Positions 11,746 to 33,807 of a stretch of 64,000 nt of DNA are shown here, in pieces. The position numbers and the translations under genes were made by a program. The notes beneath the pieces are model-generated. The model was not told the origin of the DNA, searched no databases, and saw only the letters and a list, made by a program, of their open reading frames with translations. The DNA is from Kaistella antarctica (lineage in GTDB: Bacteria; Bacteroidota; Bacteroidia; Flavobacteriales; Weeksellaceae). The stretch is from NCBI RefSeq assembly GCF_900109615.1, contig NZ_FOIX01000004.1, positions 372,001 through 436,000 on the forward strand, read 5' to 3'. The stretch's first letter is position 1. Each line of letters begins with the position of its first letter.

Positions 11746-12719
11746 TATTTTCGTAAAGTATCAATTATCTTTTTAGTCAGTATCGGAAAATGATTAAGTC
11801 CGATTTTTACCGCTTGTAGTTTTGTTGATGGCTTAAATTGCACTGGATAAAAACCATTTTTATTTAAATATGTTACGATAACTTTTAAATCTTTAGAAGA
11901 ATACTTAAAAAAGACAAGATGATTAAAGATAATCTGGTGTAAAGACTGCTGTTTATCTTGAATAGCTTTTGCTAAATCTGCATTATCATTCCGAATATTA
12001 TTTTTAAATTGTTCTAATGATTTATTTACAGTTACGATTGATTCAAAATAGCGGAATCGTTTCTTAAAATTGGTAACATTTGTAAAAGAGTTTGGATGCT
12101 GAACATAATTATACCCAATAATATCAATATACTTCACCGTAGAAGAATAATAAATAATCCTTGGAAAAATTTCTGAATCCTGCATATTAATCGAGGGCAT
12201 AAAAAGCAAGTTGTTTTCAATGAAAATTGACTTTTTAAATATATATTGCCACGTGTAACTATTTGCTTTAAATTTTTGGTAATATACTGTTGCAGGATAC
12301 ACCTCGGTATTCTTATCACTTGGATATGCGATGCTTGAAACTATACCGTCTTTGTTTGTAACATTATAGTTCATACACAAAATATCAAAATCATTGGTGT
12401 GCAATTCTTTTATTAACAAAGGTAATTTATTTGTGTCTATAAAATCATCGCCATCGATCATCCAAACATAGTCTCCTTTTGCTGCTGCAATTCCTGTGTT
12501 ACGTGCAGCTCCTAAACCTTCGTTTGTCTTGTTAATGAGATGAAGATTGGGTATTTCTGAAACCAATTGTTCAACTAGAGTTTGGGTGATATCAGTAGAA
12601 CCGTCATTCACTACAATGATTTCATAGTTAGAAGCTACTGCTTCATCGTAACAGGATTCAATGCATTTCTTTATATACAATTCTACATTGTAAGCGGCGA
12701 TTAGGATGGATAAACGCAT
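11745..12719 (-). CDS. Glycosyltransferase family 2 (GT-A fold)
   Basis: A 324-residue GT2 enzyme with the N-terminal LSILIAAYNVELYIKKCIES, the nucleotide-binding VVNDGSTDIT (about residues 36-45) and the metal-binding MIDGDDFID (about 90-98). The segment GLGAARNTGIAAAKGDY between them is the usual GT2 signature. The C-terminal 130 residues are specific to the acceptor and do not reveal it. It has no membrane segment and should act on the inner face of the inner membrane in building the repeat unit. Confidence 0.88.
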   Translation of the reverse strand: MRLSILIAAYNVELYIKKCIESCYDEAVASNYEIIVVNDGSTDITQTLVEQLVSEIPNLHLINKTNEGLGAARNTGIAAAKGDYVWMIDGDDFIDTNKLPLLIKELHTNDFDILCMNYNVTNKDGIVSSIAYPSDKNTEVYPATVYYQKFKANSYTWQYIFKKSIFIENNLLFMPSINMQDSEIFPRIIYYSSTVKYIDIIGYNYVQHPNSFTNVTNFKKRFRYFESIVTVNKSLEQFKNNIRNDNADLAKAIQDKQQSLHQIIFNHLVFFKYSSKDLKVIVTYLNKNGFYPVQFKPSTKLQAVKIGLNHFPILTKKIIDTLRK

Positions 12720-12778
12720 TCTGTTATTTTATATAATTTTAATAAAAAGTAGTGTTTTATAATTTAAGAGATATTCTT

Positions 12779-13738
12779 TTATTTTACTAAAAATATACCA
12801 GCAGACAACTTTGGATATGTAGTTAAAAGTATTCTAAGTTTCATCATTAACTTTTTCGCACCTTTTAACGTATAGTATTGTTGTGCAAGACGGTAAAATT
12901 TCATGCTCGATAAACATACTTTTTTAATTTTTCTCTTACTTTTTTTATCTACTAATTTGGAATAATTGGTATCTTTAATTACTTGTGAGAATATTGAGTG
13001 TGCATTTTTACATTTAAATAATCTAAACTCAGTTTCATTTGTTATTGAAGAGGTCACACCATTCCCAACTCTATAAAGTACAGTTGGAATATTTAAATAT
13101 AATATCTCACCTAAAATCTTTGCTCGTATGGCAAGGTTTCTATCCTCTATATTGTTAATTTCTAAAGATGGGAATTCGTTAAATACCTCACGACTGTACG
13201 CAAACGTGCATCCTGCTCCACCCATTAAGAATCGGATGAAATAACTCAATTCATTCGTGTCTAAAGAGCTGAGACTTTCATCAAAATCTTGGATTGGAAT
13301 AGAATCTTTAATAGAATTTAAATTCTCAAATTTAATGAATTTGGTAGTTATTAGTTTTGGTTTTCTTTCATAATGATTCCATGCTTCATAAATAACTTTC
13401 ACTCTGTTTTTAAGCGCTATATCATCTCCGGCTCCTACAATGATAAGTTCTCCTTTAGAAATATTTTTGACCACATGTTCAACATGTTTAACAAGCCCTA
13501 AATTCTTTTCATTTCTATTAAGAATAATTTTATGATTAGCTAGTAATTTATGTGTTGCTACATAATTTTCTATGACTTTAAAAGAGTTATCTGTTGAGCA
13601 ATCGTCCGAAATAATTATCTCTAAATTAGGATATTCTTGCAGATAAACTCCATCTAAACTTTCTGTAATTAAATCTTGTTGGTTGTAAACAAAAATAATT
13701 AACGATAATAACGGATACTTTTTTTCACTACTTGTCAA
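12779..13738 (-). CDS. Glycosyltransferase family 2 (GT-A fold)
   Basis: A 319-residue GT2 enzyme with LLSLIIFVYNQQDLITESL, IISDDCSTDNS and VGAGDDIA as the three GT-A landmarks. The frame begins with TTG at 13738, a few bases after the flippase stop, and no ATG lies upstream in frame, so TTG is the likely start. The gene lies between the flippase and the second GT2 gene, in the middle of the assembly operon. The acceptor and donor are unknown. Confidence 0.85.
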   Translation of the reverse strand: MTSSEKKYPLLSLIIFVYNQQDLITESLDGVYLQEYPNLEIIISDDCSTDNSFKVIENYVATHKLLANHKIILNRNEKNLGLVKHVEHVVKNISKGELIIVGAGDDIALKNRVKVIYEAWNHYERKPKLITTKFIKFENLNSIKDSIPIQDFDESLSSLDTNELSYFIRFLMGGAGCTFAYSREVFNEFPSLEINNIEDRNLAIRAKILGEILYLNIPTVLYRVGNGVTSSITNETEFRLFKCKNAHSIFSQVIKDTNYSKLVDKKSKRKIKKVCLSSMKFYRLAQQYYTLKGAKKLMMKLRILLTTYPKLSAGIFLVK

Positions 13739-21436: not shown

Positions 21437-21667
21437 TTACTTTTTGTCTTGACACAAAAAGTAACAAAAAGGTCAAGACTGGATCCTTTTGCTAAAAAAT
21501 GATAATTTCTTCTGAGAAAATCCCCAAACTTGCGCGGAAATGTAGATTACGCTTCGATTATGGATTTTTGCCGCGCTTCAAACACTGGGGATTTTTAGGC
21601 GTTGCTAGTTGATAAATTTGGTTGGGAAGAAATAATCATTTTTTTTAACGCAAAAGACTCCTAAGTC
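21437..21667 (+). repeat. Structured element copy 1 (type B hairpin)
   Basis: The 5' hairpin arms are TTACTTTTTGT and ACAAAAAGTAA (11 paired bases) with loop CTTGAC. The loop is complementary to GTCAAG at 21472-21477. The inner stem is of the GCGCGG/CCGCGC type, and the outer stem is CCTTTTGC/GCAAAAGA with one mismatch. It ends in CTCCTAAGTC, as all copies do. Strand is given as the sense in which the 5' hairpin comes first; the transcribed strand is unknown. Confidence 0.88.
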
Positions 21668-21777
21668 ATATAAATATATTTAATTATTTAGCTCACTTCA
21701 AAAAAAATCTGATTCACTCCCTCTAGGTTTGGGGAATATGAAGCAGATTTTTTTTTAACGCAAAATGCTCCTAAGTC
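21668..21777 (+). repeat. Degenerate mini-copy of the structured element
   Basis: Arms AAAAATCTGATTCA (21703-21716) and TGAAGCAGATTTTT (21739-21752) pair with one mismatch around a CTCCC/GGGGA core. The unit ends with the same 3' tail as the full copies (GCTCCTAAGTC). The 5' hairpin is missing. A sister piece without the tail follows copy 7. Confidence 0.6.
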
Positions 21778-21907
21778 AATAGGTACTTTCACTTTAATTT
21801 CCAAAGCGAGCTTGTCGTTGGTGATTGAAATTGATTATTGGCAGTGGAGATGGTGATTGAGCCTGTCGAAATCACGGTTGCATATAATATTCTTTTATTG
21901 TGTTTAA

Positions 21908-22137
21908 GTTCTTTTGCCTTGATGCAAAAGAACCAAAAAATCAAGACTGGATCATTTTGCTAAAAAATGATTATTTCTTCCGAGAAAATCCCCAAAACTC
22001 GGGCGGAAATGGAAAGTGGTTATAAGAATATCTGTTTTTGCCGCCACTCAAACAGTGGGGATTTTTAGGAGTCGCTAGTTGGCAACTATGGTTAGGAAGA
22101 AATAACCATTTTTCTGAACGCAAAATGCTCCTAAGTC
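21908..22137 (+). repeat. Structured element copy 2 (type A hairpin)
   Basis: Hairpin GTTCTTTTGC/GCAAAAGAAC with loop CTTGAT, complementary to ATCAAG at 21940-21945. The outer stem is CATTTTGC/GCAAAATG, a compensated C-to-A / G-to-T change relative to copy 4. Inner stem GGCGG/CCGCC. Confidence 0.9.
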
Positions 22138-22263
22138 AAAAGTGATTTATTTTTTGATAAATGAAACTGGGTGATTGAGCCTGGAGATGGTGATTGAGAA
22201 TGGAGATGGTGATTGAGCTTGTCGAAATCACGGGTAGAAATGAAATTCTTTTATTGTGCTTAA

Positions 22264-22493
22264 GTTCTTTTGCCTTGATGCAAAAGAACCAAAAAATCAA
22301 GACTGGATCCTTTTGCTAAAAAATAGTTATTTCTTCTGAGAAAATCCCCAAAACTCGGGCGGAAATGGAAAGTGGTCATAAGAATATCTGTTTTTGCCGC
22401 CACTCAAACAGTGGGATTTTTAGGCGTTGCAAGTTGATAAATTTGGCTGGGAAGAAATAATCATTTTTTCTTAGCGCAAAAGGCTCCTAGGTC
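22264..22493 (+). repeat. Structured element copy 3 (type A)
   Basis: Same 5' hairpin and loop complement as copy 2. Outer stem CCTTTTGC/GCAAAAGG. The end reads CCTAGGTC instead of CCTAAGTC, and the GGGG arm is shortened to GGG. Block 22430-22780, which includes its 3' end, is nearly repeated 730 bases downstream. Confidence 0.88.
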
Positions 22494-22618
22494 AAAAGTG
22501 ATTTCTTTTTTGATAAATGAAGCTGGTTGATTGAGTCTGGAGATGGTGCTTGAGGATGGAGATGGTGATTGAGCCTGTCGAAATCACGGGTACAAATGAA
22601 ATGCTTGTATTCTTTTAA

Positions 22619-22848
22619 GTTCTTTTGCCTTGATGCAAAAGAACCAAAAAATCAAGACTGGATCCTTTTGCTAAAAAATGGTTATTTCTTCTGAGAAAAT
22701 CCCCAGAACTCGGGCGGAATTGGAGATTACTTCGAAGAACAACTATCTTTGCCGCCACTCAAACAGTGGGGATTTTTAAGCGTTGCAAGTTGGTATAGTG
22801 GGTTGGGAAGAAATAACCATTTTTCTTAACGCAAAAGGCTCCTAAGTC
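22619..22848 (+). repeat. Structured element copy 4 (type A, best-paired copy)
   Basis: All stems are intact: hairpin GTTCTTTTGC/GCAAAAGAAC; outer stem CCTTTTGC/GCAAAAGG; long stem ATGGTTATTTCTTC/GAAGAAATAACCAT (14 pairs); AAAATCCCC/GGGGATTTT; and GGCGG/CCGCC. It is nearly identical to copy 6. Confidence 0.92.
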
Positions 22849-22993
22849 GAGTGGAATTTCTTTTAGATATTTGATGTCTCAGTGATTGAATCCGTCGATG
22901 GTGATTAAGCCTGGGGATGGTGATTGAGGATGGAGATGGTGATTGAGCTTGTCGAAATCACGGTTATAAATGAAAGTCTTTGATTTTGCGTAA

Positions 22994-23223
22994 GTTCTTT
23001 TGCCTTGATGCAAAAGAACCAAAAAATCAAGACTGGATCCTTTCGCTAAAAAATGGTAATTTCTTCTAAGAAAACCCCCAAAACTCGGGCGGAATTATAG
23101 GTTGTTTCTGAGAATAACAATTATTGCCGCCACTCAGACAGTGGGGATTTTTAGGCGTTGCAAGTTGATAAATTTGGCTGGGAAGAAATAATCATTTTTC
23201 TTAACGCGAAAGGCTCCTAAGTC
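22994..23223 (+). repeat. Structured element copy 5 (type A, compensated outer stem)
   Basis: The outer stem reads CCTTTCGC/GCGAAAGG: a T-to-C change in the left arm is matched by A-to-G in the right arm, keeping all eight pairs. The other stems are as in copy 4 with minor mismatches. Confidence 0.9.
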
Positions 23224-23348
23224 AAAAGTGATTTCTTTTTTGATAAATGAAGCTGGGTGATTGAGGATGGAGATGGTGCTTGAGGATGGAGATGGTGATT
23301 GAGCCTGTCGAAATCACGGGTACAAATGAAATGCTTGTATTCTTTTAA

Positions 23349-23578
23349 GTTCTTTTGCCTTGATGCAAAAGAACCAAAAAATCAAGACTGGATCCTTTTG
23401 CTAAAAAATGGTTATTTCTTCTAAGAAAATCCCCAGAACTCGGGCGGAATTGGAGATTACTTCGAAGAACAACTATCTTTGCCGCCACTCAAACAGTGGG
23501 GATTTTTAAGCGTTGCTAGGTGATAAATTTGGCTGGGAAGAAATATCCATTTTTCTTAACGCAAAAGGCTCCTAAGTC
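23349..23578 (+). repeat. Structured element copy 6 (type A)
   Basis: Nearly identical to copy 4, including the central loop between the GGCGG and CCGCC arms and the left flank. One mismatch in the long stem (right arm GAAGAAATATCCAT). It indicates recent duplication or gene conversion within the array. Confidence 0.9.
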
Positions 23579-23714
23579 GAATAATTTCTTTTAGATAATA
23601 GATGCCTTGGTGATTGAGTCTGTCGATGGTAATTGAGTCTGTTGATGGTGATTGAGATTGGCGATGGTGATTGAGCCTGTCGAAATCACTATTAGCAAGA
23701 CTTTTTTTTATATT

Positions 23715-23971
23715 TTACTTTTTGTCTTAACACAAAAAGTAACAAAAAGGTCAAGACTGGATCATTTTGCTAAAAAATGGTAATTTCTTCTGAGAAAATC
23801 TCCAATTATTTATCTCGTCCTCAAGACGAGACTCGGGCGGAATAATAAATTATTTCTTCGATTCGTTATTTTGGCCGCGCTTCAAACACTGGGGATTTTT
23901 CGGAGTGGCAAGTTGATAAATTTGGCTGGGAAGAAATAATCATTTTTTTTAACGCAAAAGGCTCCTAAGTC
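23715..23971 (+). repeat. Structured element copy 7 (type B, with hairpin insert)
   Basis: Hairpin TTACTTTTTGT/ACAAAAAGTAA with a variant loop CTTAAC. An extra ~25 bases lie between the AAAATC arm and the GGCGG arm and contain their own hairpin CTCGTC-CTCAA-GACGAG (23814-23830). The inner arms are mixed (GGGCGG left, CCGCGC right), as if two subtypes had recombined. Confidence 0.87.
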
Positions 23972-24080
23972 ATATAAATATATTTAATTATTTAGCTCAC
24001 TTCAAAAAAATCTGATTCACTCCCTTTTTTATGCTGAGCATGTCGAAGTTAGGGTTGGGGAAAATGAAGCAGATTTTCTT
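23972..24080 (+). repeat. Degenerate mini-copy after copy 7
   Basis: The first ~55 bases match the right flank of copy 1 almost exactly. Arms AAAAATCTGATTCA (near 24005) and TGAAGCAGATTTT (near 24065) can pair, with a longer and unrelated loop. The conserved 3' tail is absent. Confidence 0.5.
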
Positions 24081-24159
24081 GAAGCATGTAGCTTCGACAA
24101 GCTCAGCCACCAGGATCATCAAGCTCAGCCACCAGGATTATCAAGTATTCGGCAAGAAG

Positions 24160-25128
24160 TTATTTCAAATTTGCCCAGTACCATTCGACGGCTTCTTGGA
24201 GGCCTTTTTTGATGTCGTGGGAGGGTTTGTAGTTTAAAAGATTTTTTGCCTTATCGATGGAAGCTAAGGAATGAGGAATATCGCCCGATCGTTGAGGGCC
24301 GTGAATGATTTCGATATTTTTTATTTCGGGATCGTAATCGGAAAGGTATTCTTTAAGGTATGCTACGAGGAGATTAAGGGTGGTTCGGTCCCCTACGGCC
24401 GTATTGTAAACGGTATTGATGGCATCGATATTATCAGAGAGCATTGCCTTTTCGTTCATTTGAAGGACATTGTCGATATAGGTGAAATCGCGAGAGTAAT
24501 CACCCGTTCCATTGATAATAGGGCTCTCATGATTCATTAACTGAATGACGAATTTCGGAATGACGGCGGCGTAGGCTCCATTGGGCGTTTGTCGTCGGCC
24601 GAAGACGTTGAAATACCGCAAACCGATACATTCCAACCCGTACGTTTTACTGAAGACGTCGGCATACAGTTCATTAACGTATTTGGTAATGGCATAGGGT
24701 GATAGCGGTTTTCCGATGACCTCTTCTACTTTTGGCAAGGCTGCTGAATCTCCATAGGTTGAGGAGCTGGCAGCATAAATGAATCGTTTGACCTTGGCAT
24801 CGCGTGCAGCGACAAGCATGTTTAAAAAGCCCCCGACATTAACATCATTGCTGGTAATAGGATCATTAATGGATCGTGGAACGGATCCCAAAGCCGCTTG
24901 GTGCAATATATAGTCTTGTCCGTGACAGGCTTGATGACAGGTTTCTAAATCGCGAATATCTCCTTCGATCAGATTGAAGTTGGGATGATTGATCAGGTGG
25001 TCGATGTTATGTTTGAAGCCGATGGCAAAATTATCTAAGACTGTGACGTGGTCGCCTTTGTCGATGAAGTGGTCGCAGAGGTTGGAGCCGATAAAGCCTG
25101 CGCCGCCGGTTATTAATATTTTGTTCAT
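24160..25128 (-). CDS. tviC: UDP-N-acetylglucosamine C4-epimerase (TviC/WbpP type)
   Basis: A 322-residue extended SDR. It has the NAD motif ITGGAGFIGSNLCDHFIDKG, then YILHQAALGSVPRSINDP, the Ser site YAASSSTYGD and the catalytic Tyr/Lys in LSPYAITKYVNELYADVF, and ends with EAVEWYWANLK. This sequence run is that of TviC/WbpP, which interconvert UDP-GlcNAc and UDP-GalNAc (or the acids). With tviB it should supply UDP-GalNAcA. It is isolated between repeat arrays I and II, away from every other gene of the locus, and has a candidate promoter at 25263-25270. The stop lies close to the degenerate end of array I. Confidence 0.9.
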   Translation of the reverse strand: MNKILITGGAGFIGSNLCDHFIDKGDHVTVLDNFAIGFKHNIDHLINHPNFNLIEGDIRDLETCHQACHGQDYILHQAALGSVPRSINDPITSNDVNVGGFLNMLVAARDAKVKRFIYAASSSTYGDSAALPKVEEVIGKPLSPYAITKYVNELYADVFSKTYGLECIGLRYFNVFGRRQTPNGAYAAVIPKFVIQLMNHESPIINGTGDYSRDFTYIDNVLQMNEKAMLSDNIDAINTVYNTAVGDRTTLNLLVAYLKEYLSDYDPEIKNIEIIHGPQRSGDIPHSLASIDKAKNLLNYKPSHDIKKGLQEAVEWYWANLK

Positions 25129-25262
25129 TTTTTATATTTTAATTGTGAGGTTAGAAGAACATCTTCGTTCGAAAGGGATGGTTTAATCACTTCAGTTGTT
25201 TCCTCTAGCTTTTTATAATTATTCAAAAAAAGATTAGCTTTCGCTGTTCTTTTTTATTGGTG

Positions 25263-25270
25263 CAAAAGTA
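25263..25270 (-). promoter_or_regulatory. Candidate -7 promoter box upstream of tviC
   Basis: TACTTTTG on the minus strand, a full match to TAnnTTTG and the same octamer as the box before tviB. It lies 135 bases before the tviC start. It is followed by CA, as at the box before ribBA. No convincing -33 element is seen. Confidence 0.45.
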
Positions 25271-25464
25271 AGGAAAGTTAACGCCATCGTTTTTCTTTTT
25301 TGTAAAATCTTTTGAATTGTTGTTTTGAGTGCTTGCTTATCTTTTATTGGAATGTGAGGGAAGTAGAGATTAATCGAAATTTCTTTAAAGTTGTCTTTAA
25401 TGAAGGTTACTGATATCAGGTATATTTTTAGTATGGTACAACTATGTGTAGTTTATTAAATTAA

Positions 25465-25729
25465 GTTCTTTTGCCTTGATGCAAAAGAACCAAAAAATCA
25501 AGACTGGATCCTTTCGCTAAAAAATGGTTATTTCTTCTGAGAAAATCCCCCGAATTGACTCCCTGAGGTCGTCGAACCACTACGTTAGGTTTCGGGCGGA
25601 AATGGAAAGTGGTTATAAGAATACTGTTTTTGCCGCCACTCAAACAATGGGGATTTTTAGACGTTGCTAGTTGATGAATTCGGTTGGGAAGAAATAGTCA
25701 TTTTTTTTAACGCAAAAGGCTCCTAAGTC
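25465..25729 (+). repeat. Structured element copy 8 (type A, with 36-base insert)
   Basis: Hairpin GTTCTTTTGC/GCAAAAGAAC. Outer stem CCTTTCGC/GCAAAAGG with one unpaired position. A 36-base insert (about 25555-25590) sits between the AAAATCCCC arm and the GGCGG arm and contains GAACC and GGTT words that can pair. The 336 bases before it, back to the tviC start, show nothing but the candidate promoter. Confidence 0.9.
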
Positions 25730-25847
25730 GAATAATTTCTTTTAGATAGTAGATGTCTCGGCGATTGAGACTGGAGATGGTGATTGAGCCTAGAGATGGT
25801 GATTGAGCCTGTCGAAATCACGGTTATATTGAAGTTCTTTTATCTAA

Positions 25848-26111
25848 GTTCTTTTGCCTTGATGCAAAAGAACCAAAAAATCAAGACTGGATCATTTTGC
25901 TGAAAAATGGTGATTTCTTCTTAAAAAATCCCCAGAATTGACTCCCTGCGGTCGTCGAACCACTACGTTAGGTTTCGGGCGGAAATGCAAAGTGGTTATA
26001 AGAATATCTGTTTTTGCCGCCACTCAAACAGTGGGGATTTATGGATGTTGCAAGTTGAGAAAGATAGTGCGAAGAAATCACCATTTTTCTTTACGCAAAA
26101 TGCTCCTAAGT
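25848..26111 (+). repeat. Structured element copy 9 (type A, two compensated stems, 36-base insert)
   Basis: The outer stem is CATTTTGC/GCAAAATG and the long stem is ATGGTGATTTCTTC/GAAGAAATCACCAT. Both differ from copy 4 by changes in the two arms that keep the pairing complete. It carries the 36-base insert (about 25938-25973), one base different from that in copy 8 in the CTGAGG/CTGCGG word. Confidence 0.92.
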
Positions 26112-26216
26112 CGGATAATTTCTTTTAGATAGTAGATGTCTCGGCGATTGAGAATGGAGATGGTGATTGAGCCTAGAGATGGTGATTGAGCCTGTCGAAA
26201 TCACGGTTATATTGAA

Positions 26217-26444
26217 GTTCTTTTGCCTTGATGCAAAAGAACCAAAAAATCAAGACTGGATCATTTTGCTAAAAAATGGTAATTTCTTCTTAGAAAATCC
26301 CCAAACTTGCGCGGAAATATAGATTACGCTTCGATTATCGATTTTGGCCGCGCTTCAAACACTGGGGATTTTTAAGCGTTGCAAGTTGATGAATTCGGTT
26401 GGGAAGAAATAACCATTTTTCTTTACGCAAAAGGCTCCTAAGTC
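26217..26444 (+). repeat. Structured element copy 10 (type A hairpin, type B inner stem)
   Basis: The 5' hairpin and loop are type A, but the inner part has the GCGCGG/CCGCGC arms and the ATTACGCTTCGATTAT loop of copy 1. Outer stem CATTTTGC/GCAAAAGG is imperfect. It is a chimera, so the sub-domains exchange as blocks. Confidence 0.88.
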
Positions 26445-26499
26445 GAGTTGGATTTCTTTTTTGACAGGTGGTATTGTGGGTGACTGGGTCGATTCGATG

Positions 26500-27440
26500 G
26501 TGATTTCGATAGGCACAATCACCGAGGTGAAAAGTGACGGGTGATTAAGGTTGGCAGTTGTGATTTCGACATGCTCAATCACCGGGTTGCAAGTTGCTAG
26601 GTGAAAGGTTACGGGAGACAGGCTTAATCAACGAGGTGGAAAGTGACAGGTGGTTAAGATTAGCTGATGTGATTTCGACAGGCTCAATCACCGGGTTGCA
26701 AGTTGCTAGGTGAAAGGTTACAGGAGACAGGCTCAATCACCGAGGTGGAAAGTGATGGGTTATTAAGATTAGCTGATGTGATATAGACAGGCTCAATCAC
26801 CGAGGAGGAAAATGACGGGTGATTAAGATTAGCTGAGGTAATTTAGACAGGCTCAATCACCGGGTTGCAAGTTGCTAGGTGAGAGGTTACAAGAGACAGG
26901 CTCAATCACCGAGGTGGAAAGTGATGGGTTATTAAGATTAGCTGATGTGATTTCGATAGGCTCAATCACCGAGGTGAAAAGTGATGGATGATTAAGATTA
27001 GCTGAGGTGATTTCGACAGGCTCAATCACCGGGTTGCAAGTTGCTAGGTGAGAGGTTACAGCAGACAGGCTCAATCACCGAGGTGGAAAGTGATGGGTGA
27101 TTAAGGTTGGCAAATTGTGATTTCGACAGGCTCAATCACCGAGGTGAAAAGTGATTGGTGATTAAGATTAGCTGATGTGATTTCGACAGGCTCAATCACC
27201 GGGTTGCAAGTTGCTAGGTGAAAGGTTACAGGAGACAGGCTCAATCACCGAGGTGAAAGTGACAGGTGATTAAGATTAGCTGAGGTGATTTCGATAGGCT
27301 CAATCACCGAGGAGGAAAATGACGGGTGATTAAGGTTGGCTCAGGTGATTTCGACAGGCGCAATCACCGAGGTGGAAAGTGACGGGAGATTATGCTTAGC
27401 AAATGTGATTTCGACAGGCTCAATCACCGGGTTGTGCAAG
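26500..27440. repeat. Hairpin repeat array (about 17 GTGATT...AATCAC-type units)
   Basis: About 17 occurrences of the word AGGCTCAATCACC (with variants) at alternating spacings of roughly 50 and 60 bases. Many are preceded by GTGATTTCGAC, giving GTGATT-(11 bases)-AATCAC hairpins. The 54-110-base higher unit contains GCAAGTTGCTAGGTGA and TTAAGATTAGCTGA. The same hairpin occurs singly, in the opposite orientation, before each structured element of arrays I and II. The minus strand is open in long stretches and encodes repetitive peptides, but I see no start, composition or homology that supports a protein. Confidence 0.88.
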
Positions 27441-27593
27441 TTGCAAGGTCACAAGTGTAGTGCAAGGTGAGAGTTGTTGGGTGCAAGGGAAAAGGCGCCT
27501 GGTAACAGGTAAAGGGTGTACTGAGTGTGGTGCATAGTGCATGGTATATGGTACCTGGTCTCTGGTGCGAGGTAGGATTATCTACTTATTTGA
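27441..27593. repeat. Degenerate 7-base-period repeat before wzc 3' end
   Basis: A GT-rich stretch in which GTNNNNG words recur every seven bases (GTGCATA, GTGCATG, GTATATG, GTACCTG, GTCTCTG, GTGCGAG). It lies directly downstream of the wzc stop codon on the minus strand. It looks like a diverged heptamer array. Confidence 0.65.
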
Positions 27594-29915
27594 TCAAACG
27601 AAGCGTTTCCACCATTTGGGTTTTTCGTCGTGGGTGTAGGAGTAGTATCCGTAGCCGTATTTTTTGCCGTAGCGGGTGTTTTCGGGTTTGACGCCGTTGA
27701 GAATGAAGGTCATGGTTTTGATGCCGTTTTCCTGTTGGAAGCCAGCGGCGAAATCGATCATTTCTTTTTCAGTAACGTCGGATTTTACAACGTATAACAC
27801 CACGTCGGCGTTTTCGACTAAATGTAAGGTATCACTGACCAGCATCACGGGAGCAGAATCTAAAACGATATATTCATACTTGGTTTTCAAGTAGGCGATA
27901 AGATCATCGAACTTTTGCATATCGAGTAGATCATTTGGGTTAGGTGCAAGTTGACCCCCAAACATAACGTCTAAATTTGGATTGATCTGAGAAGGAATAA
28001 TAAAAGAATCTGGCAAAGTGTCATCAGAAATTAAATAATCGGTTAAACCAATATTTTTTCCCGTCACAAAACGATGCAACTGTGCGTTGCGAATATCTGC
28101 GCCAACAATAATGACTTTATTTTTCCCCGCTAAGGTTAAGGCAGTATTCATGGAGATGGTAGTCTTACCTTCGCCTTTTACAGAGGAAGTGACTAATATC
28201 ACTCCTCCATGGACAACTTCTTTGGCTTTGAGCAGGTATTTAAGGTTGGAACTTAAAATGCGAAAGGATTCGGCAAAGACGGAAAAATCGCTAGACTGTA
28301 TCAAGGGAGTCTGATCCTGATTTACTGGAATTTCAGCCAAGACTGAAGCCTCTGGAACCTGAGAAAGAATATGCTGTTTCGTATGTACTTTGGTATCTAA
28401 GGTTTGCCAGCCAATAAAGAAAATTAAGGGCAATAAAAAACCAGCAGCCAAAGCGCCGTAAATGACTTGATCTTTGTTGGGTTTTACAACACCTGTGGTG
28501 TAGGCTGGATTAATAATTTTTGCTTTGGGCGCTGTAACAGCCAAAGTAATAGCGTTTTCTTCGCGTTTTTGGAGTAGGTATAAATAGAGTTGTTCTTTGA
28601 GTGTCTGTTGACGATCAATACTTCGGAACATTTTTTCCTGCGTGGGAAACTTGCTGATATTTCCCTTGGCTACATTCAACTGCCCCGTTGCTTGGGCAAC
28701 TTGTAGTTGAAGGGTTTCTCGGGATTCCAGTAGATTTTTACGGATTAAGTTCTTCAAAGACGCAATCTGTTTGTTCATTTCAATGACGGCAGGGTTTTCC
28801 CCGGTCGCTTGTTTCAGAACCCGGTTTCGAGTTAGCATTAAGCTATTGTATTCGGCAATGGCTGTTTCAGCGCCAGTCGGCAAACCCATGCCACTTGGCA
28901 ATAACTGATCGGTTGCGCTAGTGGCCAGCACGGAATTCACCAAATTTAACTGCATCGATTGTTTAAGAATGGTTTTGGTATTTTCGTCAGCGTTAGCCAA
29001 TGATATACTGGCTTGCGCTTCAAGATTGGTTATTTGATTGGTGCGTTTGAATCGTTCTTTCTCGCCTTCAATGCCCGAGAGGTCATCTGTAATAATTTCT
29101 AAACGCTCATTGATAAAGTTCTGAGTGTTCTGCGCTTCTAAATTTTTATCATTCACGCCATCGATGAGATATTGTTTCGACAGTTCATCAAGGATATTCT
29201 CCGATTTTTTTGGCACGGGACCAACTAAAGACAGATCCATGAGCAAACCTTTTTCTGGAGGCAAGCTTACCTTGATCCGACTCTCTAAGCCTGCAACCAC
29301 GCTACCTATAGAACGAAAAACCACCTTGACTGGAGATTTTAGGGTCAATCCCGGTTTAGCATCAATCTGTACGGTACCAAAAGGGAATTTAGCTGGAAGT
29401 CCAAAACGATGGACCGTTTTTGAGTTTTCTAAAGTATAAGAATTATTACCAGTTGGATTGATAATATACGTTGCAGAGGAAAATCGATCTGAGTTGAAAA
29501 CTTCGATGATCTTTCCCGTTAATGGAGAGTCAGCATACAGTTCGACTTCTTTTATCGTACCGACACTATAGAAGCTAACGTCTAAATTTAATTTTTTGGC
29601 CACCGCTCCTAAGATTGGCTTTGAGACGATGATTTGAGTCTCGCCCTGCAATTCATTATCACCACTAACGCCAACGCCAAGATTTTTTAAATCACTGAGG
29701 GCGGCGGAATTGGTACTTTTGGATTCCTGTAGTTTTAGGGAAGTTTTGGTAAAATATTGCGGTTCTGCATAGCGCAAATAAATTCTGGCAGCAGTATAAA
29801 ACAAAGCCAAACTCAATAAAAACCAAGGCCATTTCTTGAGGTATCTACCGATTTCTTTTTTGAGGTTGACGGGTTGTGCCCTCTTCACCGGCACTGAATT
29901 TTCTAACAGTTCCAT
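27594..29915 (-). CDS. wzc: Wzc-type polysaccharide co-polymerase / tyrosine autokinase
   Basis: A 773-residue inner-membrane protein. Residues 15-100 form the Wzz-type N-terminus with a membrane segment at about 31-48. A long periplasmic coiled-coil region follows (about 250-450), then a second membrane segment at 484-503. The cytoplasmic BY-kinase has Walker A TSSVKGEGKTT (576-586), Walker A' VIIVGADIR (601-609) and Walker B YIVLDSAP (682-689). The C-terminal tail has six tyrosines between 749 and 760 (the autophosphorylation cluster). It controls chain length and export together with Wza, which is encoded seven bases upstream. The phosphotyrosine phosphatase that usually resets Wzc is not in the window. 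Confidence 0.93.
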   Translation of the reverse strand: MELLENSVPVKRAQPVNLKKEIGRYLKKWPWFLLSLALFYTAARIYLRYAEPQYFTKTSLKLQESKSTNSAALSDLKNLGVGVSGDNELQGETQIIVSKPILGAVAKKLNLDVSFYSVGTIKEVELYADSPLTGKIIEVFNSDRFSSATYIINPTGNNSYTLENSKTVHRFGLPAKFPFGTVQIDAKPGLTLKSPVKVVFRSIGSVVAGLESRIKVSLPPEKGLLMDLSLVGPVPKKSENILDELSKQYLIDGVNDKNLEAQNTQNFINERLEIITDDLSGIEGEKERFKRTNQITNLEAQASISLANADENTKTILKQSMQLNLVNSVLATSATDQLLPSGMGLPTGAETAIAEYNSLMLTRNRVLKQATGENPAVIEMNKQIASLKNLIRKNLLESRETLQLQVAQATGQLNVAKGNISKFPTQEKMFRSIDRQQTLKEQLYLYLLQKREENAITLAVTAPKAKIINPAYTTGVVKPNKDQVIYGALAAGFLLPLIFFIGWQTLDTKVHTKQHILSQVPEASVLAEIPVNQDQTPLIQSSDFSVFAESFRILSSNLKYLLKAKEVVHGGVILVTSSVKGEGKTTISMNTALTLAGKNKVIIVGADIRNAQLHRFVTGKNIGLTDYLISDDTLPDSFIIPSQINPNLDVMFGGQLAPNPNDLLDMQKFDDLIAYLKTKYEYIVLDSAPVMLVSDTLHLVENADVVLYVVKSDVTEKEMIDFAAGFQQENGIKTMTFILNGVKPENTRYGKKYGYGYYSYTHDEKPKWWKRFV

Positions 29916-29921
29916 GCAGGC

Positions 29922-30725
29922 TTATTTTCGGGTTAAGGTAAAAATTAAGGTCAATAAGCCTAAGCCTACTCCGCCATATTTAATCCATTGATCCACATTG
30001 GAATTGGTATTGACGCCAACTTGCTTATTACGGTCGGGCTCTACATACAGAATATCATTCTGTTGGAGGTAATAGTAGGGAGAATTGACAATAGAAGCTT
30101 CTGATAAGTCCAAAGAAACTACTTTATCTTTACCCTGTTCGTCGGAATAGCGTATCAGTTTGACACTGGTTTTATTGCCATCGTAGGTGGTATCTCCGGC
30201 TAAGGCTAAGGCTTGAAAGAGATTTAATCTTTCGGTCGTACTTGTTTTTTGACCTGGACTTTTAACTTCTCCCAAGACGCTAAAATTAAAATTCGCAAGG
30301 GTGACGGTAACCATAGGGTCCGTCAAGTATCGCATTAAACGGCTTTCGATTTCCTTTTTCAGTTGCACTTTCGTCATCCCTTTGCAATAAATACTTCCTA
30401 AGACTGGGAAGATGATGGTGCCGTCTGAATTAACAAGATAATCACTGGGAACGGCGGTGGAAATGTTATTTGAACTTGTACTATTATCGCCAGCTGAACC
30501 AGTTCGGGCCATGCTGGGTATATTAAAAGGGCGAACCGCAATTTCGTCAAAAGCGGAAACTAAAATCTGCAAACGATCCCCTTCCTGAATATGAAGACCT
30601 AGGTATTTGGCTTGGGAGACTTCCTGTTCAAAGTTATTGTTGGATAAGTAAACAACATTGGCCTTTGGTTTACAGGCTAGAAAAGCAAGCGATATAAAAA
30701 TGAGTAGAAGAATTTTATTTCTCAT
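29922..30725 (-). CDS. wza: Wza-like polysaccharide export lipoprotein
   Basis: A 267-residue outer-membrane lipoprotein. The start is set at the ATG at 30725 (MRNKILLLIFISLAFLACKP) because it gives a clean lipoprotein signal peptide with the lipobox cysteine at LAC; the open frame extends 31 codons further without homology. The Poly_export domain (GLHIQEGDRLQILVSAFDE, then YLVNSDGTIIFPVLGSIYC) is followed by SLBB-type segments and a C-terminal hydrophobic helix VGLGLLTLIFTLTRK. It forms the translocon for the polysaccharide across the outer membrane. Confidence 0.92.
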   Translation of the reverse strand: MRNKILLLIFISLAFLACKPKANVVYLSNNNFEQEVSQAKYLGLHIQEGDRLQILVSAFDEIAVRPFNIPSMARTGSAGDNSTSSNNISTAVPSDYLVNSDGTIIFPVLGSIYCKGMTKVQLKKEIESRLMRYLTDPMVTVTLANFNFSVLGEVKSPGQKTSTTERLNLFQALALAGDTTYDGNKTSVKLIRYSDEQGKDKVVSLDLSEASIVNSPYYYLQQNDILYVEPDRNKQVGVNTNSNVDQWIKYGGVGLGLLTLIFTLTRK

Positions 30726-30786
30726 GATGTTTGATACGGGTTTACTAAATAATGATTTGACATCAATATAGTCCCCCGATTTTGTA

Positions 30787-31422
30787 CTAGAAACTATTAA
30801 AATAATAGTTGACCCCAACTGCTAATTGATGGTTATAGGTATTACGCATGGTATTATCGGGATAGACTTTGGTAAAGCCGCGGTCATATCTTAAAAAGCC
30901 TTCTAAGTTTTCGCCAACTTTCGCTCCAACTCCTACCGAAACACCAATACCAAAATCATTTAAAGTGCTATCCATATTATATTTATAATACACTAAATCG
31001 TAAGCTGGATCTACCTGGCGATCTTCGCGCACCAAAAACTCTACGCGTGGTCCAGCAAATAAAAAGAAGTTAGAGATATCATAATTGCGTTTGAAGAAAT
31101 ACTTTAGGTATAGTTGTGCGGCAACATAATCGTGGTTAAACTTCTGAACACCAAACTTATTTTGTTCCGCTTTGGCATGTTCGCCCTGCATACTGTACTC
31201 TACTTGTGGCACCAGAAAAAGCCAACCTGTGCCGGAAATATCGCCTTCCGCGAGTGTAAATTCAGCAAGTGCACCAATAGAGGCACCAAATTTTCCTTTC
31301 GAAACATCATGAACTCCCAATATAGATCCCTGATGGAAATTACCAGTTACCCCGTATCTCACTTCCTGACTATTCACCATTGTTAAAAGGAAAATGGCGA
31401 TAAATGTATTAATTTTCTTCAT
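30787..31422 (-). CDS. Outer-membrane beta-barrel protein (PorT/OmpX-like)
   Basis: A 211-residue protein with a Sec signal peptide (MKKINTFIAIFLLTMVNSQ) and alternating-hydrophobicity strands ending in an aromatic-rich C-terminus (HQLAVGVNYYFNSF), as in outer-membrane beta-barrel (b-brl) domains. The internal motif FFLFAGPRVEFLVRED is typical of this group in flavobacteria. The gene opens the capsule transcription unit, 61 bases before wza. Its function is unknown; it may assist export or anchor the machinery, but this is inferred from position only. Confidence 0.8.
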   Translation of the reverse strand: MKKINTFIAIFLLTMVNSQEVRYGVTGNFHQGSILGVHDVSKGKFGASIGALAEFTLAEGDISGTGWLFLVPQVEYSMQGEHAKAEQNKFGVQKFNHDYVAAQLYLKYFFKRNYDISNFFLFAGPRVEFLVREDRQVDPAYDLVYYKYNMDSTLNDFGIGVSVGVGAKVGENLEGFLRYDRGFTKVYPDNTMRNTYNHQLAVGVNYYFNSF

Positions 31423-31925
31423 CTAATTTATAATCGACAGTTATGAATCTTTAGTTTAAAAAGATTATTGTGCAAATTACTTAAAATTATTTCAATTATA
31501 CCCTATAGTTTTGAAAGTAGTGTGTTTGTGGGCTGGGTGATGGGTGATGGATGATGGGTGATGGATCCTGGATGATGGATGATGGATGATAAAAGATAAG
31601 TGATGAGTAATGAGTAATGAGTAATGAGAAATGAGAAATGAGAAATGAGAAATGTAAGTATATTTAAGTTATAGAGATTTATTGGAAGTGCTATGTAGAC
31701 ATTTATTTATTCGTCATTTTTGCCAACAAACTTGCTTTCTACTTAATTCTGACCTTTTACTGTTTATTTTTGCATCCATTTATTTCTTATAAAACCTCCT
31801 ATGAATTTTTAATAGGTTGACCGAAATTAACCATTGTTTGCTGAGTATTAACCGTCGATAATAAGAAATCGCCCCATTATTACCCATTACTCATTTTTCA
31901 TTACTCATTAACTCTTAAACCTAAT
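31423..31925. repeat. Gap with 7-base tandem repeats
   Basis: No gene is seen. At 31535-31590 eight successive 7-mers of the form GGRTGAT (one variant GGATCCT) occur. At about 31600-31652 follow three TGAGTAA-type and four TGAGAAA-type 7-mers. At 31884-31910, just past the recX stop, four more 7-mers (TAATGAG, TAATGAA, AAATGAG, TAATGGG on the minus strand) occur. The arrays are intergenic, so copy number changes would not alter proteins. Confidence 0.85.
31472..31479 (-). promoter_or_regulatory. Candidate -7 box at the head of the wza-wzc operon
   Basis: TAATTTGC on the minus strand, a near match to TAnnTTTG, about 50 bases before the beta-barrel gene start. TTG occurs about 15 bases upstream of it. 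Weak evidence. Confidence 0.3.
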
Positions 31926-32408
31926 TCATTCTCGCTCTTCTGCAGTGTCTGTGATGACTTGGGTGATTTCTTCATATTCAAATCCCTTGGACAATAAATA
32001 TTTGATGGTTTTGGAATTTTTCTGATAAAGCTGTAAACCCTTGATTTTTGAAATGTAGTTGTGGTAAAGTTTGGAGAGGGTTTTGTGATAATCTTGGTCA
32101 TCAATTTCGTCAAAACATCTATTAATCAATTTCTCGGGAACTTCTTTAAATTTTAAGTGATTTCTTATTTTATTTCGTCCCCACGATTTCATGTAGAATT
32201 TTCCGCGGATATAGCTTCGGGTAAATCGTTCTTCATTGAGGTAATTTTCCTTCATTAAGAATAGAAGAATTTCGTCTTTGGCTTCCGGAATCAATAAGAA
32301 ATCCCACATCTTCTGTTCGACCTCTTTATGGCAGCGGTCTTGATAGACGCAGTAATTGGCCATCTTTTGTTTGATTTCGAGAAAGGTATAGGATTTTTTT
32401 TGATCCAC
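31926..32408 (-). CDS. recX: RecX family regulator of RecA
   Basis: A 160-residue protein with the three-helix repeats of RecX. Landmarks are FLEIKQKMANYCVYQDRCHKE, then NYLNEERFTRSYIRGKFYMK (the conserved L-N-D/E-E-R-F segment), and KGFEYEEITQVI near the C-terminus. RecX binds inside the RecA filament groove and limits recombinase activity. The start is a GTG at 32408. Array III lies directly upstream, so any element there would be next to the promoter of a gene controlling recombination; this may be chance. Confidence 0.88.
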   Translation of the reverse strand: MDQKKSYTFLEIKQKMANYCVYQDRCHKEVEQKMWDFLLIPEAKDEILLFLMKENYLNEERFTRSYIRGKFYMKSWGRNKIRNHLKFKEVPEKLINRCFDEIDDQDYHKTLSKLYHNYISKIKGLQLYQKNSKTIKYLLSKGFEYEEITQVITDTAEERE

Positions 32409-32525
32409 GACTTGGTAATTTATGATGGGTGAAATATATTAAGAGTACGAATTTAAAAAAATTCAATTAATGTCATGTTTTCTATAAAAGGCTGGTGTCT
32501 CTAAATAAATTATTTCTTTTATCTT

Positions 32526-32751
32526 TTACTTTTGCCTTGATGCAAAAGTAACAAAAGATCAAGACTGGATTTATTTGCTAAAAAAAGAAAATTTCATCTG
32601 ATAAAATTCCTAAACTTGCGCGGAAATGAAAGTTTCGCTTCGATTATGAAGTTTTGCCGCGCTTCGGACAAAAGGAATTTTTATGTTTGCTAGTTGAAAT
32701 GCTTGGTTGGAAGAAATTTACTTTTTTCTTAACGCAAATAACTCCTAAGTC
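32526..32751 (+). repeat. Structured element copy 11 (type C)
   Basis: Hairpin TTACTTTTGC/GCAAAAGTAA with loop CTTGAT, complementary to ATCAAG. Outer stem TTATTTGC/GCAAATAA (eight pairs, all different in both arms from CCTTTTGC/GCAAAAGG at three positions). Stem AAAATTCC/GGAATTTT replaces AAAATCCCC/GGGGATTTT. Inner stem GCGCGG/CCGCGC. Confidence 0.9.
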
Positions 32752-32948
32752 AGTTTTGATTGACGTTTCTGTCAATGGCTGCGTAGGTTGTCATTCTGAC
32801 GAAGGAAGAATCTCATCTTTAAAATAAAATTCGATTTTTCTTTCTTAATTACTTTTGCCTTGATGTCTCTTTCATTGGCTACGGAAGTTGTCATTCTGAC
32901 GAAGGAAGAATCTCATCTTTTAAATTAAAGTCGATTTTTCTTTCTTAA

Positions 32949-33174
32949 TTACTTTTGCCTTGATGCAAAAGTAACAAAAGATCAAGACTGGATTTATTTA
33001 CTAAAAAAAGAAAATTTCTTCTAAGAAAATTCCTAAACTTGCGCGGAAATGAAAGTTTCGCTTCGATTATGAAGTTTTGCCGCGCTTCGGACAAAAGGAA
33101 TTTTTATAATTGCTAGTTGAATGGTTTGGTTGGAAGAAATTTACTTTTTTCTTAACGCAAATAACTCCTAAGTC
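32949..33174 (+). repeat. Structured element copy 12 (type C)
   Basis: As copy 11, with one mismatch in the outer stem (TTATTTAC against GCAAATAA) and a long stem GAAAATTTCTTC/GAAGAAATTTAC with one mismatch. Confidence 0.9.
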
Positions 33175-33370
33175 AGTTTTGATTGATGTTTCTTTCATTG
33201 CCTGCTGAGTTGTCATTCTGACGAAGGAAGAATCTCATCTTTAAAATAAAATTTAATTTTTCTTTCTTAATTACTTTTGCCTTGATGTTTCTTTCATTGG
33301 CTGCGGAGTTTGTAATTCTGACGAAGGAAGAGTCTCATCCTTAAAATAAACTCTGATATTTTTTTCTTAA

Positions 33371-33690
33371 TTACTTTTTGTCTTGACACAAAAAGTAACA
33401 AAAAGGTCAAGACTGGATTTATTTGCTTCATCTCCTTTTATGGGTTTCAGCTGAATCAGCGAAACTCCTTCGTCGTTTTGCTAAAAAAAGAAAATTTCTT
33501 CTGACAAAATTGAGTCGCTGCGCTCGTCGAACCACTTCGTTAGGTTCCCTAAACTAGCGCGGAAATGAAAGTATCACTTTGATTATAAAGTTTTGCCGCG
33601 CTTCGGACAAAAGGAATTTTTATGTTTGCTGGTTGAAGTTTTTGGTTGGAAGAAATTTACTTTTTTCTTAACGCAAATAACTCCTAAGTC
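33371..33690 (+). repeat. Structured element copy 13 (type B hairpin, type C body, two inserts)
   Basis: The 5' hairpin is TTACTTTTTGT/ACAAAAAGTAA with loop CTTGAC and complement GTCAAG, but the body is type C. A ~55-base insert at about 33428-33482 splits the left arm of the outer stem and can form GTTTC-A-GCTGA / TCAGC-GAAAC. A 36-base insert at about 33511-33546 sits at the same internal site as in copies 8 and 9 and is related to them. Confidence 0.88.
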
Positions 33691-33807
33691 AAGGTCACTT
33701 TGAAATTCGTTTTTATTAGGTTATAAATTCATCTTTGATATAAATAACTTCTAATTCAATTTTACAATAATTTTGCGCTTAAATAAGTTCATTTCAAAAT
33801 TAGCAGA

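Follow-up and report, generated by a model that had tools for sequence, protein, structure and literature searches.

The question raised by this locus is why a structured sequence of about 230 bases should recur thirteen times, always pointing in the same direction, in a window of 64,000 nucleotides from Kaistella antarctica (contig NZ_FOIX01000004.1, positions 372,001 to 436,000), in which molecule its structure is selected, and by what route it has spread. An original prediction, made from the letters of the window, had proposed selection on either a folded RNA or a single-stranded DNA. The reading preferred here, with a probability of about 0.5, is that of a miniature mobile element, dispersed and non-coding, about 160-260 bp long and under selection for the fold that one of its DNA strands adopts. 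It displays discrete copies, conserved stems and a conserved pseudoknot, recurring internal-loop motifs, wide spread and a covariation that is mostly of Watson-Crick type.

A pattern for the start of the element, with at most two mismatches allowed, has 13 matches in the window, all on the + strand, when 0.02 are expected in shuffled sequence, which agrees with the number and direction of copies first described. The 13 copies were extracted, aligned and folded singly, and their positions (21439-33691) were set by a covariance model, R1, built without the pseudoknot. In single-sequence folds of window copies the outer stem, the long stem, the stem AAAATCCCC/GGGGATTTT and the stem GGCGG/CCGCC appear as they had been drawn, and the same four stems are recovered by RNAalifold from 33 sequences, 7 of them from the window. 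The outer stem joins the 5' and 3' parts of the element, and outside it lies a 5' module with a pairing that the original prediction had overlooked. The loop of the 5' hairpin, CTTGAN, has its complement, NTCAAG, about 20 bases downstream; in copy 4 this module (22620..22659, + strand) consists of the hairpin TTCTTTTGC/GCAAAAGAA with the loop CTTGAT, which pairs with ATCAAG in an H-type pseudoknot. The variable pair of the pseudoknot is T-A in 17, A-T in 8 and C-G in 7 of the 33 sequences, with one mismatch. The motif CTTGAN/NTCAAG is also present in 28 of 29 members from outside the genus, and in all 28 the variable base is paired. Since 27 of these members were retrieved with R1 and 2 with a blastn query of the 5' module, the search itself favours the presence of the motif, but it does not favour a paired variable base.

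In the alignment of 33 rows, 95.4% of the cells are paired compared with 86.8% in shuffles, and cells with both sides changed number 171 compared with 45 in shuffles and 7 to 45 in slid controls. The paired changes inside the window, from which selection had first been argued, amount to a few inherited events, and the case therefore draws its strength from other genomes. There the argument holds, as follows from a test against a phylogenetic null of the kind that the original prediction had called for. From 147 sequences 88 were kept (180-250 bases, redundancy removed), aligned with MAFFT without fitting to the structure, and given a FastTree tree. The null consisted of 30 simulated alignments, in which each column evolved independently of the rest, at its own rate and with its own composition, and the statistic was a G-test with average-product correction at E below 0.05. 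Under these conditions significance is reached by 30 column pairs, of which 18 belong to the proposed structure: 2 in the hairpin, 1 in the pseudoknot, 3 in the outer stem, 7 in the long stem, 4 in the third stem and 1 in the apical stem. The pseudoknot pair, 14-31, has the top covariation score of the whole alignment. The 12 other pairs join columns of the 5' module or columns where GGCGG switches to GCGCGG, and they look like linked subtype markers. RNAalifold by itself gives only 10 pairs on the 88-sequence alignment, and the structure tested was therefore the consensus fold of the 33 sequences.

The strand and the molecule in which the fold is selected can be read from the wobble pairs. 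In a selected RNA strand, G.U intermediates should be common and A.C pairs rare. This is illustrated by RNase P, an RNA from the same bacterial family that was used as control (26 of 28 sequences over the Rfam cut-off, two not orientable): its covarying pairs have 119 G.T and 6 A.C beside 374 alternative Watson-Crick cells, and all its pairs have 200, 8 and 386, respectively, so that G.U is 20 to 25 times commoner than A.C. When the element is read on the strand drawn in the original prediction, the 18 covarying pairs of the 88 sequences have 13 G.T and 48 A.C beside 416 alternative Watson-Crick cells, and the covarying pairs of the 33-row alignment have 8 G.T and 26 A.C beside 139. Over all pairs of the 33 rows there are 41 G.T (28 of them in two columns), 32 A.C and 155 alternative Watson-Crick cells, and in a model-fitted alignment of 106 rows there are 150 G.T (90 of them in two pairs) and 98 A.C. 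Such cells are not independent, and the counts are effect sizes rather than p-values. On the drawn strand, then, G.U and A.C occur at similar frequency when all pairs are counted, and at the covarying pairs G.U is the rarer of the two, which is not the pattern that RNase P shows, and RNA of the drawn strand is therefore unlikely. Of what was first proposed, selection on a folded single strand is supported, and an RNA of the drawn strand, at 13 G.T to 48 A.C, is not.

When the same cells are read on the complementary strand, the proportions are reversed: G.T to A.C becomes 48 to 13 beside 416, 26 to 8 beside 139, and 98 to 60 when two pairs are left out. In the complementary strand's own fold the covarying pairs have 42 G.T, 13 A.C and 138 alternative Watson-Crick cells, and all pairs have 73 G.T (43 of them in four extra pairs), 18 A.C and 155. 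The wobble of the complementary strand thus stands between the expectation for DNA and that for RNase P.

The element is found far beyond the window. Blastn with copy 4 gives matches in 70 of 149 relatives, and the covariance-model search of Bacteroidota that had been suggested at the outset finds the element in 31 of 36 genomes of the same genus and in 91 of 345 genomes sampled across the phylum, the latter with stricter filters by which weak matches were lost. In named genomes the exact pattern of the 5' module matches 13 stretches, from Chryseobacterium, Sphingobacterium, Eudoraea, Saprospiraceae, Balneolaceae and Aliifodinibius, the full fold being shown for only some of these. A 58-base query with the 5' module matches plasmids of Ilyobacter polytropus (Fusobacteriota) and of Parabacteroides, besides giving two weak, chance-like matches, and on the Ilyobacter plasmid there are 37 blastn matches, some of which are pieces of one copy. 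The full element matches none of 50,697 phage records and none of 72,556 plasmid records, and cargo of phages or plasmids was on this ground rejected as an explanation; the 58-base query has no phage match, and the exact pattern none in viral contigs.

From the window's genus to the Fusobacteriota the stems vary while several motifs persist. Among the 29 members outside the genus, GCTAA occurs in 19 when shuffled sequence would give 1.6, CTTAACGC, if as many as two changes are allowed, in 23 (7.3 expected), AACTCG..CTCRRACA in 13 (0.04 expected), and terminal ends of the GRC/RAGRC type in 15 (0.01 expected). The Ilyobacter members keep GCTAAA, CTTAACGC and AACTCG..CTCAGACAGT on different stems, and in five of their copies (L303, L304, L305, L308 and L309) the 5' pseudoknot module is repeated, inverted, about 400 bases downstream. 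There the inverted module follows a different stretch with a palindrome of its own, as if the module served several types of element. In three Saprospiraceae members (L142, L145 and L147) the inner arms are swapped with respect to the 5' module: CTAAAA lies on the 3' arm, and the 5' arm carries CTTAACGC or CTTCACGC, opposite to what the other members show.

To see how the copies are placed in their genomes, consider a copy in genome G029, the flanks of which are about 390 bases apart when the corresponding flanks in G008 are about 34 apart, and about 402 apart when compared with about 38 in G022. This is a clear case of an intergenic copy absent in two relatives, for which loss in both is also possible; the terminator-like sequence CTTTGCCAA flanks the insert on either side in G029, and G008 has it a single time. 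The ends of the element were compared between unlinked copies, with the 12 best pairs taken for each genome and neighbours closer than 400 bases (100% self-alignments) dropped. In G017 such copies match by 91% over 238 bases, from 11 bases past the 5' end to 1 base short of the 3' end; in G029 an 88% match runs 13 bases past the 5' end and 4 past the 3' end; and in twelve pairs from G022 the limits lie between -2 and 28 bases past the 5' end and between -2 and 6 past the 3' end. In 109 of 111 distinct contexts, with deviating 3' ends left out, the 3' AGTC is followed by G or A. What is expected of a miniature inverted-repeat transposable element (MITE), that is, a discrete unit at unlinked sites, present in some relatives and absent in others, is accordingly found, with ends that are sharp in many pairs, though not in all. 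In annotated records the copies lie between genes, one of them overlapping a hypothetical gene of 41 codons, and in the locus maps what overlaps copies is mostly short mechanical open reading frames (ORFs). The element has thus the long imperfect palindrome and the intergenic position of ERIC-like sequences, and it is non-coding, as had been predicted.

The orientation of the copies is mostly uniform within loci, and in relation to neighbouring genes it varies between them. In 31 of 36 tabulated multi-copy loci all copies are on one strand. Two Parabacteroides plasmids carry the element in different gaps of the same HU/smalltalk/amidase neighbourhood with opposite relative orientation, and the copies of G033 and G025 are oppositely oriented to the same neighbouring gene, which we take from its sequence to encode a lipoate-ligase-type protein.

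Several observations weigh against a mobile DNA element. No clean target-site duplication was seen, and some pairs of copies share 75 to 380 bases of flank (75 for L047/L048, 161 for two L047 copies, 192 for L230/L131, 328 and 380 for L218/L060). No transposase was recognised among the 30 most recurrent clusters of neighbour ORFs, a pool drawn from 30 kb of the window and 40 stretches of 14.5-20 kb, to which this search was confined, and Y1 transposases are absent from G004, G034 and G015, which have 29, 20 and 6 R1 hits. A bias of the copies toward one replication strand is only suggestive: orientation agrees with local GC skew at 37 of 52 loci (p 0.003; another 20 of the 72 loci were left out for having no two-way skew or no copies), and among three genomes with sampled skew G017 agrees for 14 of 15 listed copies. 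The bias is taken as no more than suggestive because the two other genomes, G029 and G022, deviate. The wobble of the complementary strand, finally, is compatible with an RNA of that strand, which RNAalifold folds slightly better than the drawn one (-47.2 to -44.8). A structured RNA of the complementary strand, either a regulatory untranslated region or a small RNA, spread by any route, is a serious rival explanation, though the less likely one. Its strand would be that of the window's polysaccharide genes, since in the window all elements are on the + strand and the large flanking genes on the - strand, and conserved internal loops and pseudoknots are usual in RNA. Against this explanation it weighs that orientation to neighbouring genes varies across loci, that a copy is missing at the matching site of two relatives, and that there is no Rfam match. 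Two differences from RNase P lead us to prefer DNA: A.C is more frequent in the element (13/416 and 8/139 compared with 6/374), and in the larger set G.U amounts to 0.12 of the alternative Watson-Crick cells compared with 0.32 for RNase P.

If the element is DNA, it may be asked which known process could handle its fold. Transfer by an HUH (Y1/RAYT) transposase of the IS200/IS605 group, as for a REP-like or MITE-like element, would account for the single-strand fold, for a 5' flank that by eye is T-rich and for the lack of an obvious target duplication, and Y1 genes occur in 30 of the 36 genomes of the genus. It is nevertheless quite unlikely, in view of the three element-bearing genomes without Y1 and of a single weak Y1 hit near a copy (about 300 bases away, in G005), the sole close one among the listed places. 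Very unlikely, too, is an integron-like or tyrosine-recombinase site that gathers genes and aids the exchange of surface-polysaccharide loci. Integron attC sites are imperfect palindromes that stand in arrays on one strand and are recognised in the folded, single-stranded state, and in palindrome and array the element resembles them; the wobble preference for the complementary strand, the polysaccharide genes or mobile islands nearby, and tyrosine recombinases beside elements in G179, G028 and G012 point the same way. On the other side, an integron integrase scores above the TIGR02249 cut-off in none of the 36 genomes, the window arrays resemble tandem duplication, no gene cassettes lie between the tandem copies 1-7, and the box symmetry of attC was not recognised in the element. 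We regard it as highly improbable that the copies are passive palindromes, the arms of which are kept alike by template switching in replication without selection on the fold. Change that is mostly Watson-Crick, nearly perfect arms and copies in tandem are what such a process would give; the pairs of the pseudoknot, however, do not belong to the arms of one hairpin, and unpaired motifs and asymmetric bulges recur while the stems vary, which weighs against it because correction between arms would erase them.

For the preferred reading, a mobile DNA element, the following course of events may be envisaged. One strand would become single-stranded in replication, repair or DNA transfer and then fold into two hairpins, one pseudoknotted, the other long and with internal loops that are conserved; going by the wobble counts, this would be the complement of the drawn strand. 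A DNA enzyme supplied in trans would recognise the fold and its loops and move the unit to other intergenic sites, where inserted copies would multiply in place by tandem duplication and give one-strand arrays like those of the window. Covariation, normally taken to prove RNA structure, may then here mark selection on DNA, and the wobble counts, with RNase P as control, offer a simple test of strand and molecule. If the cross-phylum pseudoknot is the signal by which a mobile element is recognised, the enzyme that partners the element would be a recombinase or transposase of single-stranded DNA that is new, and the reshuffling of capsule loci in Bacteroidota could be explained in part by the arrays. 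An ancient class of mobile DNA, common to Bacteroidota, Balneolaceae and Fusobacteriota, with a single-stranded pseudoknot fold, an undescribed enzyme in trans and arrays that serve as recombination points in capsule and surface-polysaccharide loci, is a further-reaching proposal and an unlikely one. If instead an RNA of the opposite strand is the true explanation, a widespread structured RNA is missing from Rfam.

That the element has no named family, as first stated, agrees with searches of Rfam: there are no matches at gathering thresholds in the whole window, and for copy 4 and the Ilyobacter and Parabacteroides members the best E is 0.16 or worse, far below gathering scores. A weak hit to BTncRNA_FopS (E 4.7) was dropped as chance. 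HEARO/omega RNA and other Rfam families are structured, repeated and linked to mobile DNA; the element differs from them by its chance-level Rfam hits and by the wobble of its drawn strand, which is not RNA-like. ERIC, Correia and similar intergenic palindromes, which are known from narrower groups, are like the element in their length of 100-250 bp, self-complementarity, many copies, internal insertions and lack of protein, and unlike it, in a comparison of features rather than sequences, in its H-type pseudoknot, its recurring internal loops and its spread over the phylum and beyond. REP/BIME sequences are described as intergenic palindromes of 20-40 bp that end in GTAG or CGTC and are presumed to owe their mobility to enzymes of the IS200/IS605 type (PMC3733652). 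Compared with that description, the element is about 230 bp long and ends in AGTC plus a purine, and no Y1 gene flanked by it was recognised in the 30 neighbour clusters that recur most. Other small non-autonomous repeats of Bacteroidota are MITECca01 of Cardinium, 240 bp long, IS982-derived, strain-specific and mostly intergenic (PMC9769881), and BrickBuilt of Porphyromonas (PMC5771137); in the passages considered no pseudoknotted, phylum-wide fold is described, which sets the element apart by description, not by comparison of sequences. For the element itself no paper was seen in searches of an open-access library, which does not prove absence from print, and no known transposon end, named in the original prediction as a refutation, was seen among the recurrent neighbours examined, no insertion-sequence database having been searched.

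In the window, with all copies on the + strand and R1 scores in bits, copy 1 of the GCGCGG subtype (21439..21668, 234.6) is followed by the 3'-end remnant of a further copy at 21749..21777, also + (blastn 93% over 29 bases, G000:C2:393749-393777; repeat family D12). Copies 2 to 6 lie at 21909..22138 (243.4), 22265..22494 (227.4), 22620..22849 (246, the top score in the window), 22995..23224 (245.8) and 23350..23579 (245.6), with a spacing of 355-375 bases. Their spacers are repeated along with them, and from this follows that the array grew by tandem duplication. In the alignment, copy 7 (23717..23972, 169.8) has a small palindrome inserted near the apical stem, copies 8 (25466..25730, 189.6) and 9 (25849..26113, 180.3) have there REP-like inserts much like one another, and copy 13 (33373..33691, 82.9) has two inserts. 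Copy 10 (26218..26445, 244.4) is again of the GCGCGG subtype, and copies 11 (32527..32752, 220.2), 12 (32950..33175, 219.4) and 13 make up one subtype, TTATTTGC/GCAAATAA in copy 11. The REP-like palindrome of copies 8, 9 and 13 (GTCGAACCAC..CGTTAGG) lies as an insert close to the apical stem, at about 25552-25591, 25936-25975 and 33510-33550, and L137 carries a similar one. Another palindrome, GTGATTTCGACAGGCTCAATCACC, forms a tandem-like array at 26448-27470 with a spacing of about 49/60 bases and is also found ahead of many element copies, and at 31519-31610 there are short 14-base tandem repeats of the GATGGGTGATGGAT type. In the whole 3.1-Mb assembly blastn gives 16 matches, a number that includes fragments belonging to a single copy, all on the + strand within 38 kb and one of them outside the window; weak mirror matches on the - strand arise because the element itself is palindromic. 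The locus holds polysaccharide genes, among them those of UDP-sugar dehydrogenases and an epimerase, and a large protein with weak, below-cut-off matches to Wzz, GNVR and AAA_31.

Among the pooled neighbours the most recurrent is a family of about 250 amino acids that starts with MARQKG (9 stretches), followed by DUF5675 (7 stretches), and a wider search of 53 stretches, some of them chosen for holding it, gives 24 MARQKG ORFs, fragments included. The MARQKG-type protein, DUF5675 and a small membrane protein form a three-gene group near element arrays. In single-contig genomes, and for the element hits as listed, 4 of 7 genes of the MARQKG group lie within 2 kb of elements, when 0.05 are expected; for Pfam DUF6266 relatives the proximity is weak, with 2 of 10 within 10 kb (0.28 expected) and none of 10 within 2 kb. 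No member was present in 13 genome loci retrieved by DNA search. As an obligate partner the MARQKG group was rejected, since, although near arrays beyond chance, its first gene is not found in some genomes that carry the element, G000 and G013 among them; it is therefore rated a neighbour and not a shown mover. Neither the MARQKG-type protein nor the DUF6266 relative has a phage match, DUF5675, the neighbour, does match a phage family, one of unknown function, and a MARQKG-type relative is found on one Marivirga plasmid. The pair MARQKG and DUF5675, in some cases with the small membrane protein, was seen in L047, L048, L052, L057, L058, L059, L062 and the Marivirga plasmid (L298, 18454-19885), and is a conserved, undescribed group common to the window's genus and that plasmid.

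In Parabacteroides the neighbourhood of the element includes DUF3987 in addition to HU, smalltalk and amidase, and once adjoins a capsule locus, while in G179 elements adjoin integrase and prim-pol genes and one lies between a peptidase and a holin-like gene; these neighbourhoods look like variable islands in which the element accumulates. Copies on Ilyobacter NC_014633.1 at 885006-885455 and 902452-902715 (L333) flank a polysaccharide gene cluster, for which chance is possible as the copies are numerous. In G014 (L201) foreign DNA lies within the 5' hairpin of the element, and an IS110-family transposase gene stands near an element array in L048 at 11847-12890.

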